The notes beneath the pieces were generated by a model. It did not search any database. It had not been told where the DNA came from and saw only the letters and a program-made list of their open reading frames with translations. A stretch of 64,000 nucleotides of DNA, from assembly GCF_000148725.1 (NCBI RefSeq), contig NZ_GL476319.1, positions 575,690 through 639,689 of the forward strand. Direction: 5' to 3'. A program made the translations under genes and the position numbers. The DNA is from Roseibium sp. TrichSKD4. Lineage in GTDB: Bacteria > Pseudomonadota > Alphaproteobacteria > Rhizobiales > Stappiaceae. Shown one piece after another: positions 743 through 19,957 of this stretch (the stretch's first letter is position 1; every line of letters begins with the position of its first letter).

Positions 743-763
743 GATTGCGTACAGTCGTATACA
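743..763 (-). promoter_or_regulatory. Putative regulatory element shared by both isocitrate dehydrogenase promoters (copy 1)
   Basis: Read on the minus strand this begins TGTATACGACTG and ends CAATC. It matches the element at 17585-17605 at 17 of 21 positions, and every mismatch is a transition. It contains the palindrome GTATAC and lies about 75 bases before the isocitrate dehydrogenase start at 838. A repressor or activator site is inferred; no cognate regulator is evident in the window. Confidence 0.5.
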
Positions 764-831
764 GCTTCGCGATTATGTCGGACGGGCTCTCGAGACACCC
801 GCTTCGACGCCGACTCTGAACAGGGAAATGA

Positions 832-3069
<2,238 letters not shown>

Positions 3070-3156: not shown

Positions 3157-4026
3157 TTAAACGACGCTCATGAGCCAATCACGAACTTTGGCTTGCGCAC
3201 TTCCAGATTCAATTCGATCTATGGACAAAAGAACATATTCAGACCCGTCTTTCACAAAACCAAGCGGGGCCGAAAGCAGGCCGTTGTTAATATCATCCTG
3301 CACTTGCCGTTTTGGACCAAGAGCAACGCCCAGCCCTGCGAAAGCTGCTTGCAAGCTGAAATAAAAATGTTCAAACACCTGCCCGTGCTGACACGAAACT
3401 GGATTACCTGTCATCCCGCTCCAGGTCGCCCAAGCATCTGACCGGGATTTGGTATGAAGACGCGGCGCATCTGATCGCACCTGGCCCCTTTCAAAAAATC
3501 GATCCACCAAATCAGAACGACAAACTGGAGCCACTTCTTCGGAAAACAGCGGAACCTGATTCAGCTTATCTGGGATTGCGAAGTCATTGCGCCGTATAGC
3601 GAGGTCAATTCCTTGTCCCAAGTTCACAGGCCCACCGCCCGCCACCAGCTGCAAATCAAAACCGGGGCATAGCCCTGAAAATGCAGAAACTCGCGGTATC
3701 AACCAACGCATCAATAAAGTCGGTTCGCAGGAAAGTACGACACGAGAAGTCGGTAAACGAGATCTGATATTGGCAATAGCTTGATCAATCCGCCCAAATC
3801 CTTCCTCAACCGCATTTAACAACTCTCGTCCATCATCTGTTAGAAAAACACGCCGGCTACGCCGTTCGAAAAGAGCAACGCCCAGATCTTCCTCCAACAG
3901 CCGAACTGACCGGCTGATCGCTCCGTGCGTAAGGCTTAGAGCGTCTGCAGCCTTACTGAAGCTCTCCAGCGAAGCTGCTGCACGAAAACAATTCAAAGAC
4001 GGCAAGGAGGTGATTGGCTGACGCAT
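3157..4026 (-). CDS. LysR-family transcriptional regulator (GcvA-like)
   Basis: The 289-residue protein has an N-terminal winged helix-turn-helix (residues about 8-67, with FSKAADALSLTHGAISRSVR as the HTH) and a C-terminal substrate-binding domain of the LysR type. The HTH sequence and the FERRSRRVFLT wing resemble the GcvA/AmpR branch. The gene is divergent from the LysE-type exporter at 4122, with less than 100 bases between the starts. That is the usual arrangement for a regulator of an amino-acid exporter, so the exporter is the likely target (inference). The inducer is unknown. No domain is missing. Confidence 0.9.
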   Translation of the reverse strand: MRQPITSLPSLNCFRAAASLESFSKAADALSLTHGAISRSVRLLEEDLGVALFERRSRRVFLTDDGRELLNAVEEGFGRIDQAIANIRSRLPTSRVVLSCEPTLLMRWLIPRVSAFSGLCPGFDLQLVAGGGPVNLGQGIDLAIRRNDFAIPDKLNQVPLFSEEVAPVCRSDLVDRFFERGQVRSDAPRLHTKSRSDAWATWSGMTGNPVSCQHGQVFEHFYFSLQAAFAGLGVALGPKRQVQDDINNGLLSAPLGFVKDGSEYVLLSIDRIESGSAQAKVRDWLMSVV

Positions 4027-4733: not shown

Positions 4734-4881
4734 CCAAAAGCCACCTTCTCACTATTCCCAGTGTTGGAGAGATCACACACCAAACCTTCACAGCCGATCC
4801 CGTTTTCGTGAAGCCTGATGTAATTTGCCGCAGCGTGACTTATCTCCCGATCTCTTCACAAACATCTTTGGGGTTTTTGAA

Positions 4882-5652
4882 ATGCAATTCGGCATTCTAG
4901 GTCATGTTGCACCGGAGCTGGGCCTCTCCGATTGGATTGATGGAAATGGCAAAACGAAGCCTTTCAGCTTGTCTGATCATGAGGGCAAGGTGCGCATCCT
5001 CTATTTCTTTCAAGCTTGGTGCCCCAGCTGTCACAGCAACGGCTTCCCGGTTTTGAAAGAGCTTTTGGAGCATTATCAAGGTAACCCCGATGTGGTTTTT
5101 GCTTCCGTTCAGAGCGTCTTTGAAGGTTTTGGGGCCAATGGTCCGGAACGGCGACAGGAGATGCTGGAGGACTACGATATCGATTTGCCGATTGCGCAGG
5201 ACGAAGGACAGCGTCCGGACACGATCAAATCCTATCGTACCGGCGGAACGCCTTGGTTCGTGGTGATCTCACGTGATGGGCGCGTTGCTCACAATGACTA
5301 TCGGCTCGGTGTCAGAGCCGGGGTAAAATTGATCGACAGCCTGCTGGATGGCTCAGCATCCGTTCCCTCCCCGCGCGATGATCGCGTGTTGCATGACGAA
5401 AAACGTCAAACTTACCATGTCGAGTTTGCAGGTGGTGGAACCGGACGCATTGAGTATCGCCGCGATGGCCATATCCTGCACCTGCTCCACTCCGAAGTCC
5501 CTGCCTCAATGCGTGGCAAAGGCTTGGGCGGACGCTTGATGGAACGCGTCTTGGAACAAGTGGAGGCAGACAAACGTAAAGTCCGTCCGGTGTGTTCCTA
5601 TACAGCCGCTTATTTGAACAGATACAAGCGATGGGCACATCTATTGGCCTGA
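4882..5652 (+). CDS. Thioredoxin-fold protein fused to a YjdJ-type GNAT domain
   Basis: One uninterrupted frame of 256 residues combines two folds. Residues about 5-155 form a TlpA/peroxiredoxin-like thioredoxin fold: AWCPSC gives a CxxC redox pair at C47/C50, and GGTPWFVV carries the cis-proline. There is no signal peptide, so a cytosolic location is likely. Residues about 165-256 match small YjdJ-like GCN5-related acetyltransferases: HILHLLHSEVP, then the acetyl-CoA loop RGKGLGGRLM, then VCSYTAAYLNRYKRW. I chose the ATG at 4882; a TTG at 4825 is an in-frame alternative. Neither start has a strong ribosome site. A perfect terminator follows. Joint function is unknown. A redox-controlled or redox-related acyl transfer role is only a guess. 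The fusion is not the usual form of either family. Confidence 0.82.
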   Translation: MQFGILGHVAPELGLSDWIDGNGKTKPFSLSDHEGKVRILYFFQAWCPSCHSNGFPVLKELLEHYQGNPDVVFASVQSVFEGFGANGPERRQEMLEDYDIDLPIAQDEGQRPDTIKSYRTGGTPWFVVISRDGRVAHNDYRLGVRAGVKLIDSLLDGSASVPSPRDDRVLHDEKRQTYHVEFAGGGTGRIEYRRDGHILHLLHSEVPASMRGKGLGGRLMERVLEQVEADKRKVRPVCSYTAAYLNRYKRWAHLLA

Positions 5653-11955: not shown

Positions 11956-12873
11956 ATGACCCCACTCACCATTCGCCAACTGCACTATTTCGACGCGCTT
12001 GCTCGCACAGGCCATTTCGGACAAGCCGCAGAAGCCTGCGCGATTTCGCAACCCGCCCTCTCCATGCAAATCAAGGAACTGGAGAGCCTTCTCGGCGCGC
12101 CAATCTTTGAACGAAGCGTAAAAAAACTGCGCCTCACGCCGTTTGGGGAAGAAGCCGTCGAACGCGCCCGCCAGATTCTGAAGTCAATTGACGAGTTGGA
12201 AGACCTCGCCCGCGCCTCTTCAGAGCGCCTTGTTGGCCGTTTGAGAATCGGTGTGATTCCCACCATTGCCCCTTACCTGCTGCCTGCTGTGATCCAGAGG
12301 TTGCAAAAAGACCATCCTGGCCTCGACATCCATATTCGAGAAACAATCACGCCCACACTTCTGGAAGAGTTGAACAACGGCAAGTTGGATGCAGCCATCG
12401 TGGCCCTCCCCGTCTCGGAAGCGGGCATCAACGAAGTCCCGCTCATTGACGAAAATTTCGTGCTTGTCAGACCGGAAGCGGACGCCAACAAACCTATCCC
12501 CAATCCGGATGCTTTGCGCGAAATGCGCCTTCTGCTCCTTGAAGAGGGCCACTGCTTTCGCGACCAAGCCCTCGCCTTTTGTAACTTTCGGCCCGGCACA
12601 TCACGCGAAGTGCTGGACGCCAATTCTCTTGCCACTCTGGTTCAAATGGTCAGTGCCGGTCTTGGTGTCACTCTCATTCCCGAAATGGCCGTGCCGATTG
12701 AAACCCAATCCGCCAAAGTGACAGTAACAAGCTTCAAACAACCGAAACCAACCCGCACGATTGGCATGGTCTGGCGAAATTCAACTCCGCTGGCGCGTCA
12801 GTTGGAAGACATTTGCAATGCCACACGAGAAACGATTGAACTCAAAATGAAGGAGTTGATTCAAGGCAAGTAA
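11956..12873 (+). CDS. oxyR: Hydrogen-peroxide-sensing LysR regulator OxyR
   Basis: The 305-residue LysR-type protein has an HTH at about residues 20-40 (FGQAAEACAISQPALSMQIK) and the OxyR redox pair. C200 in EEGHCFRD and C209 in ALAFC correspond to the peroxide-sensing C199 and C208 of the E. coli protein. Oxidation forms a disulfide that turns the regulator on. It is divergent from katG, its probable target. The start ATG at 11956 directly precedes the conserved LTIRQLHYF helix. The C-terminal effector domain is complete. Confidence 0.95.
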   Translation: MTPLTIRQLHYFDALARTGHFGQAAEACAISQPALSMQIKELESLLGAPIFERSVKKLRLTPFGEEAVERARQILKSIDELEDLARASSERLVGRLRIGVIPTIAPYLLPAVIQRLQKDHPGLDIHIRETITPTLLEELNNGKLDAAIVALPVSEAGINEVPLIDENFVLVRPEADANKPIPNPDALREMRLLLLEEGHCFRDQALAFCNFRPGTSREVLDANSLATLVQMVSAGLGVTLIPEMAVPIETQSAKVTVTSFKQPKPTRTIGMVWRNSTPLARQLEDICNATRETIELKMKELIQGK

Positions 12874-17219: not shown

Positions 17220-17653
17220 TCTCCATTATAGCCGATTGAGCGACCAGTGCAGCACATCGGCGTTCGCGACCACCCGAAGCCAGTCGCCACAATGAAGAAA
17301 TTGATCAATATATCTTTCTGATAATTAAGTACAAATGTAAATTAATTCAATTAATTACTATATTACATAAATAATACATAGGGAATAATTACCATAAATC
17401 TGACTTTCATAGAAACAAATTTTAAATGCAGCAGTAAATATAACAACCAAGAACAGAAGTCGTCCCTTCGACGATCTCATCCCAAAAACCTGGCATCATC
17501 ACTGTGTAAGAACCACAATCTTCCGCCTGTCGAATTGCTCTGTTAAAACCTTACGAGACAAAGTTGCGCTGCATATCTTGATTTTGTATACAACTGCGCA
17601 CAATCAATTCATTTCGTTCCAATTCACCTTCCGAAACGAGGTCCCAAGACACT
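17220..17653. other. 434-bp AT-rich non-coding gap between the chemoreceptor and dimeric icd
   Basis: No convincing gene is present. The centre (about 17310-17440) is strongly AT-rich with runs such as AATTAATTCAATTAATTA, suggesting promoter or curved DNA. The 3' end carries the element shared with the other isocitrate dehydrogenase promoter (17585-17605). Promoters for the divergent chemoreceptor and icd genes must lie here. Confidence 0.7.
17585..17605 (+). promoter_or_regulatory. Putative regulatory element shared by both isocitrate dehydrogenase promoters (copy 2)
   Basis: It begins TGTATACAACTG and ends CACAATC, matching the minus-strand copy at 743-763 at 17 of 21 positions. The left part is a perfect palindrome, TTGTATACAA (17584-17593), of the kind bound by GntR/FadR-type regulators. 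It ends 48 bases before the icd start codon. Confidence 0.5.
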
Positions 17654-18865
17654 ATGTCGAAGATCAAAGTCGATAATCCGATCGTTGAACTTGATGGCGA
17701 TGAGATGACGCGGATCATCTGGCAGTTCATCAAGGACAAGCTGATCCACCCGTATCTCGACCTGCCGCTGGAATATTATGACCTTGGTATGGAAGAGCGG
17801 GATCGTACCGACGATCAAATCACCGTCGATGCTGCCAATGCGATCAAAAAGCATGGCGTTGGCGTCAAGTGTGCGACAATTACGCCGGATGAAGCCCGCG
17901 TAGAGGAGTTTGGTCTGAAACGGATGTACCGGTCTCCAAACGGTACAATCCGCAACATCCTCGGCGGCGTGATCTTCCGAGAGCCAATCATCATGAAAAA
18001 CGTCCCGCGTCTGGTTCCGGGATGGACGCAGCCGATCATCGTTGGCCGTCACGCCTTTGGTGACCAATATCGCGCGACTGACTTCAAGTTCCCGGGCAAG
18101 GGCAAGCTGTCCATCAAGTTCGTTGGCGAAGACGGGCAGGAAATCGAACGCGAAGTTTTCGACGCCCCGTCGGCTGGCGTTGCCATGGCCATGTACAATC
18201 TCGATGACAGCATCCGCGACTTCGCCCGCGCTTCCATGAACTATGCGCTGGGTCGAAAGGTGCCCTGTTACCTGTCCACCAAGAACACGATCCTCAAAGC
18301 TTATGACGGACGCTTCAAGGACCTGTTTGAAGAAATCTATGAAGCGGAGTTCAAGGAAAAGTTCGCAGATGCAGGCATCTGGTACGAGCACCGCCTGATC
18401 GACGATATGGTCGCCTCGGCCCTGAAATGGTCTGGTGGCTACGTTTGGGCCTGTAAGAACTACGATGGCGACGTTCAGTCCGACACAGTGGCCCAAGGCT
18501 TCGGTTCCCTCGGCTTGATGACCTCTGTCCTCATGACGCCGGATGGAAAAACCGTTGAGGCAGAAGCTGCCCACGGCACCGTGACACGTCACTATCGCCA
18601 GCACCAACAGGGCGAAAGCACGTCCACAAACTCCATCGCCTCAATCTTTGCATGGACCCGTGGTCTGGCTCACCGCGCCAAGCTGGACGGCAACGGCAAG
18701 CTCGCTCGCTTTGCCAAGACGCTGGAAACAGTCTGCATCGACACCGTCGAAAGCGGCTACATGACCAAGGATCTTGCGCTTCTGGTAGGCCCTGAGCAAA
18801 ACTGGCTGACCACCACAGGCTTCCTCGACAAGATCGATGAAAACCTCCGGAAGGCAATGAGCTAA
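17654..18865 (+). CDS. icd: NADP-dependent isocitrate dehydrogenase, dimeric type
   Basis: The 403-residue enzyme is of the homodimeric NADP-IDH subfamily shared by alphaproteobacteria and eukaryotes (EC 1.1.1.42). Motifs include [15 protein letters not shown] at the N-terminus, the isocitrate-binding [13 protein letters not shown], the metal-binding DD in [12 protein letters not shown] and the NADP-binding [12 protein letters not shown]. It catalyses the same step as the monomeric enzyme at 838-3069, to which it is not closely related. GAGG lies 12 bases before the ATG. A strong terminator follows. The promoter element at 17585-17605 recurs before the other gene. Confidence 0.98.
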
Positions 18866-18949: not shown

Positions 18950-19957
18950 CTATGTTGTTCCGCGCTCAACCAATTTGTAACCGACGTCAATAACCTTTTG
19001 GGCTCTGGCCGCTTCAGGATCGAGAAGTGCTCTGGCCGAAGCAACACCAATTTCGTATCCCGGCACCGCAATTGTGGTTAGGTCAAATCCCGATGGCGCT
19101 GAAACTTCAAAACCGCCAAATCCTGATACAGACATGTCGTTAGGGACATCCACATCACGTCTGCTGGCTTCGCAAAGAACTCCGACCGCCACCTGATCGC
19201 TCACGCACATTACAGCGTCTACATGCGGATTTACGTTCAAACACTTTTCGAAACTTGCAGCTCCGAGTTCAATCCCGGTTAGTGCTGCCTGATCTTCATT
19301 AGGCCACATGACCGGTGCCAAGCCAGCAGACTTTAAGGCGTCCTTGTATCCTTCTCGCCGACGAAGCCCACGCACGTCGCGCGCACAACCTCCGCCAATA
19401 AATGCAATGTTTTCGCAGCCGCTGTTGATCAAATGACGAGCCATGTCATATCCGGCCTGATAATTGGAAAAGCCAACAGCGATGTCCAAGGGTTCAGATG
19501 GCAGCTGCCAAACTTCGACGACCGGAATACTGACGGCGTCAAGAAGTTTTGTGACCCCGATGGAGTGAGATGTACTCGTCAGGACAATTCCGTCCGGCCG
19601 ACGGGCAAGAAGCGCACGTAATGCCTCTTCTTCCACCTCAGGATTGTAGTTGGTACTTGTCAAAAGCAGTTCATATCCGGCGGCCCGAAGGGTGCTCGAA
19701 AGGCCGTCAAGAGTTTGTGCGAACACCGAGTCATTTACCGTAGATACTATTGCTCCAAACACACGGCTCTTGCTGGATGACAGCGCCCCAGCGGTATTGT
19801 CGGGAACATATCCCAATTCTTCAATCGCTTTTTCAACCCGTTGACGCTTTGCTTCCGAGACTTTTTCCGGAGTTCGCAAGACCCGAGAAACAGTGATAGT
19901 TCCCACATTGGCAAGATCGGCTACATCCTTCATTGTGACCCACTTGCCCATACCCAA
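18950..19957 (-). CDS. LacI-family transcriptional regulator
   Basis: The 335-residue protein has an N-terminal HTH (MKDVADLANVGTITVSRVLR, about residues 9-28), the hinge helix (NTAGALSSSKSR), and a periplasmic-binding-protein-like effector domain with VFGAIVSTVND-type strands typical of the gluconate-repressor-like branch. The start is most likely TTG at 19957, because AGGAGG sits six bases before it; an in-frame ATG at 19951 is 12 bases away. Two identical palindromes (20012-20023 and 20035-20046) lie in the gap to the divergent PhyH gene and are its probable operators. The effector is unknown. It likely represses the PhyH gene and itself. Confidence 0.92.
   Translation of the reverse strand: MGMGKWVTMKDVADLANVGTITVSRVLRTPEKVSEAKRQRVEKAIEELGYVPDNTAGALSSSKSRVFGAIVSTVNDSVFAQTLDGLSSTLRAAGYELLLTSTNYNPEVEEEALRALLARRPDGIVLTSTSHSIGVTKLLDAVSIPVVEVWQLPSEPLDIAVGFSNYQAGYDMARHLINSGCENIAFIGGGCARDVRGLRRREGYKDALKSAGLAPVMWPNEDQAALTGIELGAASFEKCLNVNPHVDAVMCVSDQVAVGVLCEASRRDVDVPNDMSVSGFGGFEVSAPSGFDLTTIAVPGYEIGVASARALLDPEAARAQKVIDVGYKLVERGTT

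Follow-up and report, generated by a model that had tools for sequence, protein, structure and literature searches.

Transcriptional control of aconitase is known from Bacillus, where it is exerted by the LysR-type regulator CcpC with citrate as the effector, and from Corynebacterium, where it is exerted by the TetR-type regulator AcnR; the operators of both differ from the element described here. A GntR-type system has been characterized in Agrobacterium fabrum. Atu1419 is a repressor of the FCD/VanR group that recognizes the 10-mer ATGTATACAT at or close to the -10 region, G3 and C8 of the 10-mer are required and are read by Arg45, and a zinc ion is held by Asn137, His141, His192 and His214, with citrate in the pocket (PMC7797058). 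The effector given there is a folate (methylenetetrahydrofolate), and the bound citrate has no effect on DNA binding (PMC7797058). A second FCD/GntR protein, CitO of Enterococcus faecalis, responds to citrate together with a divalent metal; it differs from the regulator proposed below in being an activator of citrate-utilization genes, and it is reported to respond to citrate but not to isocitrate (PMC4746285). AkgR of Rhodobacter sphaeroides is described as a transcriptional activator with 32% identity to a gntR-like protein (PMC6365646), and the title of its source names the central carbon and energy metabolism of alphaproteobacteria (as cited in PMC6365646). The AkgR motif given there, GTGATCAC, is different from the present element (PMC6365646), and the AkgR regulon was rejected after comparison of the two by eye.

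The locus analyzed here resembles the Atu1419 system in the 10-bp palindrome with a GTATAC core, in G3 and C8, which are essential there and invariant here, in operator positions that overlap the -10 region or lie between -10 and -35, as far as promoters can be predicted here, and in a candidate regulator that is also an FCD-type GntR protein with a conserved Asn-His3 zinc site. In contrast, the Atu1419 palindromes are 190 bp apart and act with looping, whereas those found here abut, and the targets of Atu1419 are hydroxycinnamate genes.

The window, i.e., the whole analyzed stretch of 64,000 nt from Roseibium sp. TrichSKD4, contains two isocitrate dehydrogenase (IDH) genes, each with one copy of the element upstream:

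744..765, plus strand: 22-bp putative operator ATTGCGTACAGTCGTATACAGC upstream of idm, with two abutting, palindrome-like 10-bp boxes at 745-754 and 755-764
838..3069, plus strand: monomeric NADP-dependent isocitrate dehydrogenase (idm; TIGR00178, 1247 bits)
17583..17604, plus strand: 22-bp putative operator TTTGTATACAACTGCGCACAAT upstream of icd2, inverted with respect to the gene, with two 10-bp boxes at 17584-17593 and 17594-17603
17654..18865, plus strand: dimeric-type NADP-dependent isocitrate dehydrogenase (icd2, icd; NF006156, 773 bits)

The sequence-only reading had noticed a pair of 21-mers, TGTATACGACTGTACGCAATC on the minus strand at 743-763 and TGTATACAACTGCGCACAATC on the plus strand at 17585-17605. 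The two indeed share 17 of their 21 bases, every one of the four mismatches is a transition, and the distances to the start codons are 75 (idm copy) and 49 (icd2 copy), as had been claimed; the true width of the element is 22 bp, slightly beyond the 21-mer. The two genes had also been called unrelated. As far as family models go, this is correct, as there is no cross-match between TIGR00178 and NF006156, while a remote structural relation between the monomeric and the dimeric enzymes is known.

Within the window, the pair of 21-mers alone is suggestive at most, because a match of 17/21 was attained in 7 of 200 shuffles of the 300-bp upstream regions, in either orientation. The 12-base core was found with up to two mismatches at 4 places in the window, compared to 3.0 expected, and 2 of the 4 were exact. 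A position matrix built from the sites of the genus, which include the two sites of the window itself, scored 26.5 at 744-765 and 23.3 at 17583-17604; the next best score in the window was 6.4, and the top score over 100 mononucleotide shuffles of the window was 19.3.

Conservation of the element was quantified in the nearest genus, that of genome G002, which is represented by 45 genomes and includes G022, the monomeric IDH of which is 94% identical to that of the window. The monomeric gene is present in all 45 genomes and is preceded by the element in all 45. The dimeric gene was found with a strong match in 44 genomes, only a distant match being present in G032, and the element is located upstream of icd2 in all 44, within 300 bp in 43 of them and in the window. 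The deviating genome is G043 (locus L119), in which inserted DNA whose ends are inverted (agggtctgttgaggttca ... cctgaacctcaacagaccct, L119 1136-1497) comes between the operator and icd2, so that the operator is displaced to about 340 bp from the start codon of this gene. Among the other genomes of the family, 30 of 42 were examined; 29 contain icd2, and 23 of these have the element within 400 bp of the gene, while none was found within this distance in G049, G050, G051, G074, G080 and G087. Outside this group the result was different: of 80 fetched loci with a monomeric IDH gene, the four from Roseibium/Labrenzia have CGTATACAATTGTRCGCAATC upstream (19/21 to the pattern), and none of the remaining 76, the majority of which belong to other phyla or classes, exceeds 16/21 in the fetched stretch. 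Therefore, monomeric IDH genes do not generally have the element. Both copies are kept across the genus and much of the family, and this conservation at both IDH genes excludes the reading that the match in the window is a coincidence.

The specificity of the element was analyzed by scanning the 45 genomes with a model trained on the sequences of the IDH sites. In each genome, scoring was limited to 150 candidates and strict filters were applied, so that weaker targets may have been missed, and the model recovers its own training sites by construction; the informative results are the scarcity of other strong matches and the targets that were not part of the training. Among the scored candidates, 86 matches were obtained at E<=0.05, of which 42 are located at most 400 bp upstream of idm and 43 at most 400 bp upstream of icd2, while the 86th is located upstream of gltA in G005. 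Thus, with 85 of 86 at the two IDH genes, strong copies are almost absent outside these promoters. A recurrent weaker match was observed upstream of the aconitase B gene (acnB), which had not been included in the first model, and all 30 acnB loci examined, taken from 40 genomes with a full-length acnB, have the element. In a first search of four genomes, seven weaker matches had been inspected by ORF listing and received no assignment. Thirteen extra match regions included five at acnB (L187-L190 and L194) and one at gltA (L191), the other seven being likely due to chance or without assignment.

Further copies are present at acnB and, in some lineages, at acnA (G047 and G061, both from other genera) or gltA (G005, G016 and, in another genus, G059). 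With 2 of 30 loci, gltA was rejected as a general target. In other genera (G052-G057), the element is found at acnB, idm or icd2. No copy at aceA was seen among the match loci examined, which came from the element scans. A separate scan of the family missed sites that are visible on direct inspection (G046, G048, G053 and others), and its negative results were not used. The copies at acnB, idm, icd2 and, in some cases, acnA or gltA show that the recurring targets are the enzymes leading from citrate to 2-oxoglutarate.

Alignment of 43 distinct sites together with their reverse complements (86 rows) yielded the consensus ATTGTATACAATTGTATACAAT, which consists of two abutting 10-bp palindromes similar to TTGTATACAA, each of which carries G3 and C8. 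None of the 86 rows deviates at the corresponding bases G4, C9, G14 and C19. The pattern first used to choose the IDH sites had fixed G4 and C19 in advance, but a matrix scan free of this constraint also found all four bases in 89 of the 90 upstream regions (45 for each gene, counting the window), the sole exception being L119 of G043 with its site farther upstream. A short palindrome with a 10-bp box containing G3 and C8 is characteristic of GntR-FCD operators, and the element has this form. GntR repressors of the FCD type bind such a form, and the sequence-only reading had likewise taken the GTATAC palindrome for a site of the GntR/FadR type. The element has opposite orientations relative to idm and icd2 in most genomes, while the icd2 copy has the idm orientation in G008 and G044. 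The flanks are conserved as well, with CTGGC upstream at idm and TTGC upstream of the element at icd2, and the promoters that can be guessed from them would place the element over the -10 region of icd2 and possibly also of idm and acnB.

Other operator types were also considered. Sigma-54 promoters follow the rule GG-N10-GC; the spacing of TGG...TTGC at idm is N9 in the window and in L001-L004 (by eye), i.e., one base off, and this type was rejected. Operators of the CRP, LysR and ribbon-helix-helix types, considered on the basis of spacing or tandem palindromes, were dropped on general knowledge of these families.

The distribution of the operator in the order was analyzed in a sample of 397 genomes, with up to 20 candidates scored per genome. 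Matches at E<=0.3 were obtained in at least 38 of the 397 genomes. In 13 of the 38 (G002, G006, G013, G015, G016, G024, G027, G030, G053, G054, G067, G069 and G073), sites are located at TCA cycle genes. For the other 25, one or more match places each were fetched, and in 24 of them tblastn revealed none of the five enzymes adjoining the match; the match in G049 is inside or near an unrelated ORF. In the fetched stretches of the first 17 of these non-TCA places, a GntR relative was found in 15, a tcuA-like gene, resembling that of tricarballylate dehydrogenase, in 14, and both in 13. The exceptions are L339 with neither gene, L332 and L330 without tcuA, and L336 without a GntR gene in its 6 kb. 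At eight further places, a tcuA-like gene was found in 5 and a GntR relative in 3, while L415, L417 and L419 have neither. Curated models named TcuA and TcuB at L320, TcuA at L326 and a 4-oxalomesaconate tautomerase at L330.

The GntR proteins encoded next to the motif led to a candidate regulator. A profile of six such proteins detected one protein at 263-275 bits in each of 12 family genomes, while the other GntR homologs listed for these genomes stayed below 150 bits, with the exception of close paralogs in four of them (see below). The candidate, a GntR-FCD ortholog of about 208 residues, has an N-terminal GntR winged-helix domain (PF00392, 63.5 bits, cut-off 27) and a C-terminal FCD domain (PF07729, 93.3 bits, cut-off 24.3). 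In a phmmer alignment to chain 6z74_A, inspected by eye, it keeps the DNA-reading residues Glu34, Arg45, Thr46 and Arg49 of Atu1419 as well as its Asn-His-His-His zinc site. The conserved DNA-reading residues fit the invariant bases of the operator.

The ortholog tracks the operator. A search of the order at E<=1e-55 retrieved 16 of the 397 genomes, namely all 13 with sites at TCA cycle genes and, in addition, G111, G244 and G298. The ortholog is present in every family genome sought that has such a site. The converse is represented by one case: among the six genomes with icd2 but without a nearby site, the search took in G049, which has neither an icd2 site nor an ortholog at E<=1e-55 and is the sole matching absence. 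The co-occurrence is confounded by kinship, as all 13 cases belong to one family. In the three orthologs outside the family, the same operator adjoins the GntR gene itself. G244 had contributed to the profile, while G111 and G298 had not been used to find the protein. In both of the latter, the site (matrix scores 18.7 and 20.3, respectively) is situated between the GntR gene and a divergent gene, and with some choices of the start codon it may reach the GntR start. The divergent gene is TauE-like in G111, with a tautomerase-like gene nearby, and tcuA in G298. Within the family, in contrast, no operator was detected near the ortholog in the fetched neighborhoods of 12 genomes, the best matrix score being 8.5, and thus the usual support by autoregulation is missing there. 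With respect to regulators encoded in the window itself, no link was seen between the dyad and the two LysR genes (3157-4026 and 11956-12873) or the LacI gene (18950-19957), and they were set aside. The LacI-family gene, on the minus strand, follows immediately after the dimeric IDH gene and resembles gluconate regulators.

Taken together, the element is probably, judged from sequence comparisons, the operator of a GntR-FCD repressor that responds to tricarboxylates and controls the genes of aconitase B and both IDHs and, in some lineages, acnA or gltA, and the ortholog of about 208 residues is the likely repressor. The sequence-only reading had proposed a common GntR/FadR-type regulator that adjusts the flux of isocitrate between TCA cycle and glyoxylate shunt. 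The type of regulator is well supported by the conservation, the few stray copies, the further copies at acnB, acnA or gltA and the GntR-FCD gene that tracks the element, while the glyoxylate-shunt part found no support among the loci examined, and the targets found belong to the arm from citrate to 2-oxoglutarate. Each 10-bp palindrome would be read by one protein dimer, with an arginine of the recognition helix contacting the invariant G3 and its partner C8. The protein would most likely act as a repressor, because the promoters that can be guessed have their -10 region under the operator. Binding of a tricarboxylate (citrate, isocitrate, aconitate or tricarballylate) at the metal site of the FCD domain could then release it from the DNA. 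The effector is the least certain step; by analogy, DNA binding of Atu1419 is insensitive to citrate, whereas CitO is citrate-responsive.

Outside the family, the three orthologs and many of their relatives are found with the same operator at tricarballylate (tcuAB) or oxalomesaconate tautomerase genes. There, the operators are located at the regulators' own promoters beside genes of tricarboxylate catabolism, and inside the family they are located at core TCA cycle genes, which suggests that a local catabolic regulator may have been rewired onto central metabolism in the Stappiaceae-type family. If this is true, one small GntR regulator co-controls aconitase and two IDHs of different families, so that a single signal would govern isoenzymes of separate types. 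A regulator of peripheral catabolism would then have been recruited to central metabolism, and a candidate protein, an operator and a target list are available for this case. No published report of such regulation was found in the open-licence literature. Tricarballylate is an inhibitor of aconitase or IDH. A more specific version, which we regard as speculative and rather doubtful, is that the regulator senses tricarballylate or similar inhibitors of aconitase and IDH, such as trans-aconitate, and raises precisely those enzymes that are inhibited (aconitase B and both IDHs), i.e., an antidote circuit based on target overproduction, with an operator that moved from local tricarballylate catabolism onto the core TCA cycle.

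It is unlikely, though deserving of some weight, that the operator is real but bound by a protein other than the ortholog, be it a close GntR-FCD paralog or a regulator of another kind. Several GntR-FCD lineages adjoining the motif have this class of operator in common, and four of the 12 family genomes (G005, G033, G053 and G057) encode one close paralog each (216-261 bits). Three of these adjoin tcuA (L353-L355) and one adjoins an AbrB-like gene (L352, by eye). Sites near the paralogs are fair in two cases (19.1 and 16.5), so that a paralog could bind, and weak in the other two (11.4 and 9.0). However, the paralogs occur in only 4 of the 12 genomes, whereas all 12 have sites at the IDH genes and the ortholog alone is present in all 12. 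In G053 the two proteins have similar profile scores (ortholog 266 bits, paralog 261 bits), but only one of them passes E<=1e-55 with the family protein as query.

Considerably less probable is the view that the element is a conserved core promoter (-35/-10) of strong metabolic genes instead of an operator. GTATAC overlaps a plausible -10 region and the flanks are conserved at both genes, but the element is a dyad, and in most genomes its orientation at icd2 is the reverse of that at idm. In addition, its strong copies in the 45 genomes are almost confined to these genes, and elsewhere it has GntR and tcuA genes as neighbors. That the match is a functionless product of chance or mutation can practically be dismissed, although shuffles of the window alone can match the pair, since the element is kept at both genes in all genus genomes that have them and was recovered at acnB, outside the model.

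Several copies of the operator at other genes were also observed. In the related genomes G055, G052 and G056, a strong operator is located just upstream of a gene for a TauE/SafE-type membrane protein (L318 2067, L286 and L275, respectively), an assignment that was made with Pfam for L318 alone. Class I methyltransferase genes have an operator at their start or close to it in G003, G045, G059 and G066 (L315 2035, L316 1994, L306 2051 and L307 2041); an identification of these proteins as trans-aconitate methyltransferase was rejected, as they remained below the model cut-off. In G030 and G057, an operator is situated near genes for AbrB-type membrane proteins (L317 1981 and L304 2071), in G057 together with a DUF3830 gene, and these neighbors resemble those seen at certain GntR genes outside the family. 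G016 has a further good copy, ATTGCATACTTTTGTATACTAA, with a score of 20.3 (L421 1759), and none of the queried TCA cycle, GntR or tcuA genes was found in the 3.5 kb fetched around it. Lastly, one ORF of the window (4825-5652, plus strand) encodes an AhpC/TSA thioredoxin-like domain (residues 26-156) together with a GNAT-like Acetyltransf_CG domain (residues 198-273), a pairing that appeared unusual.
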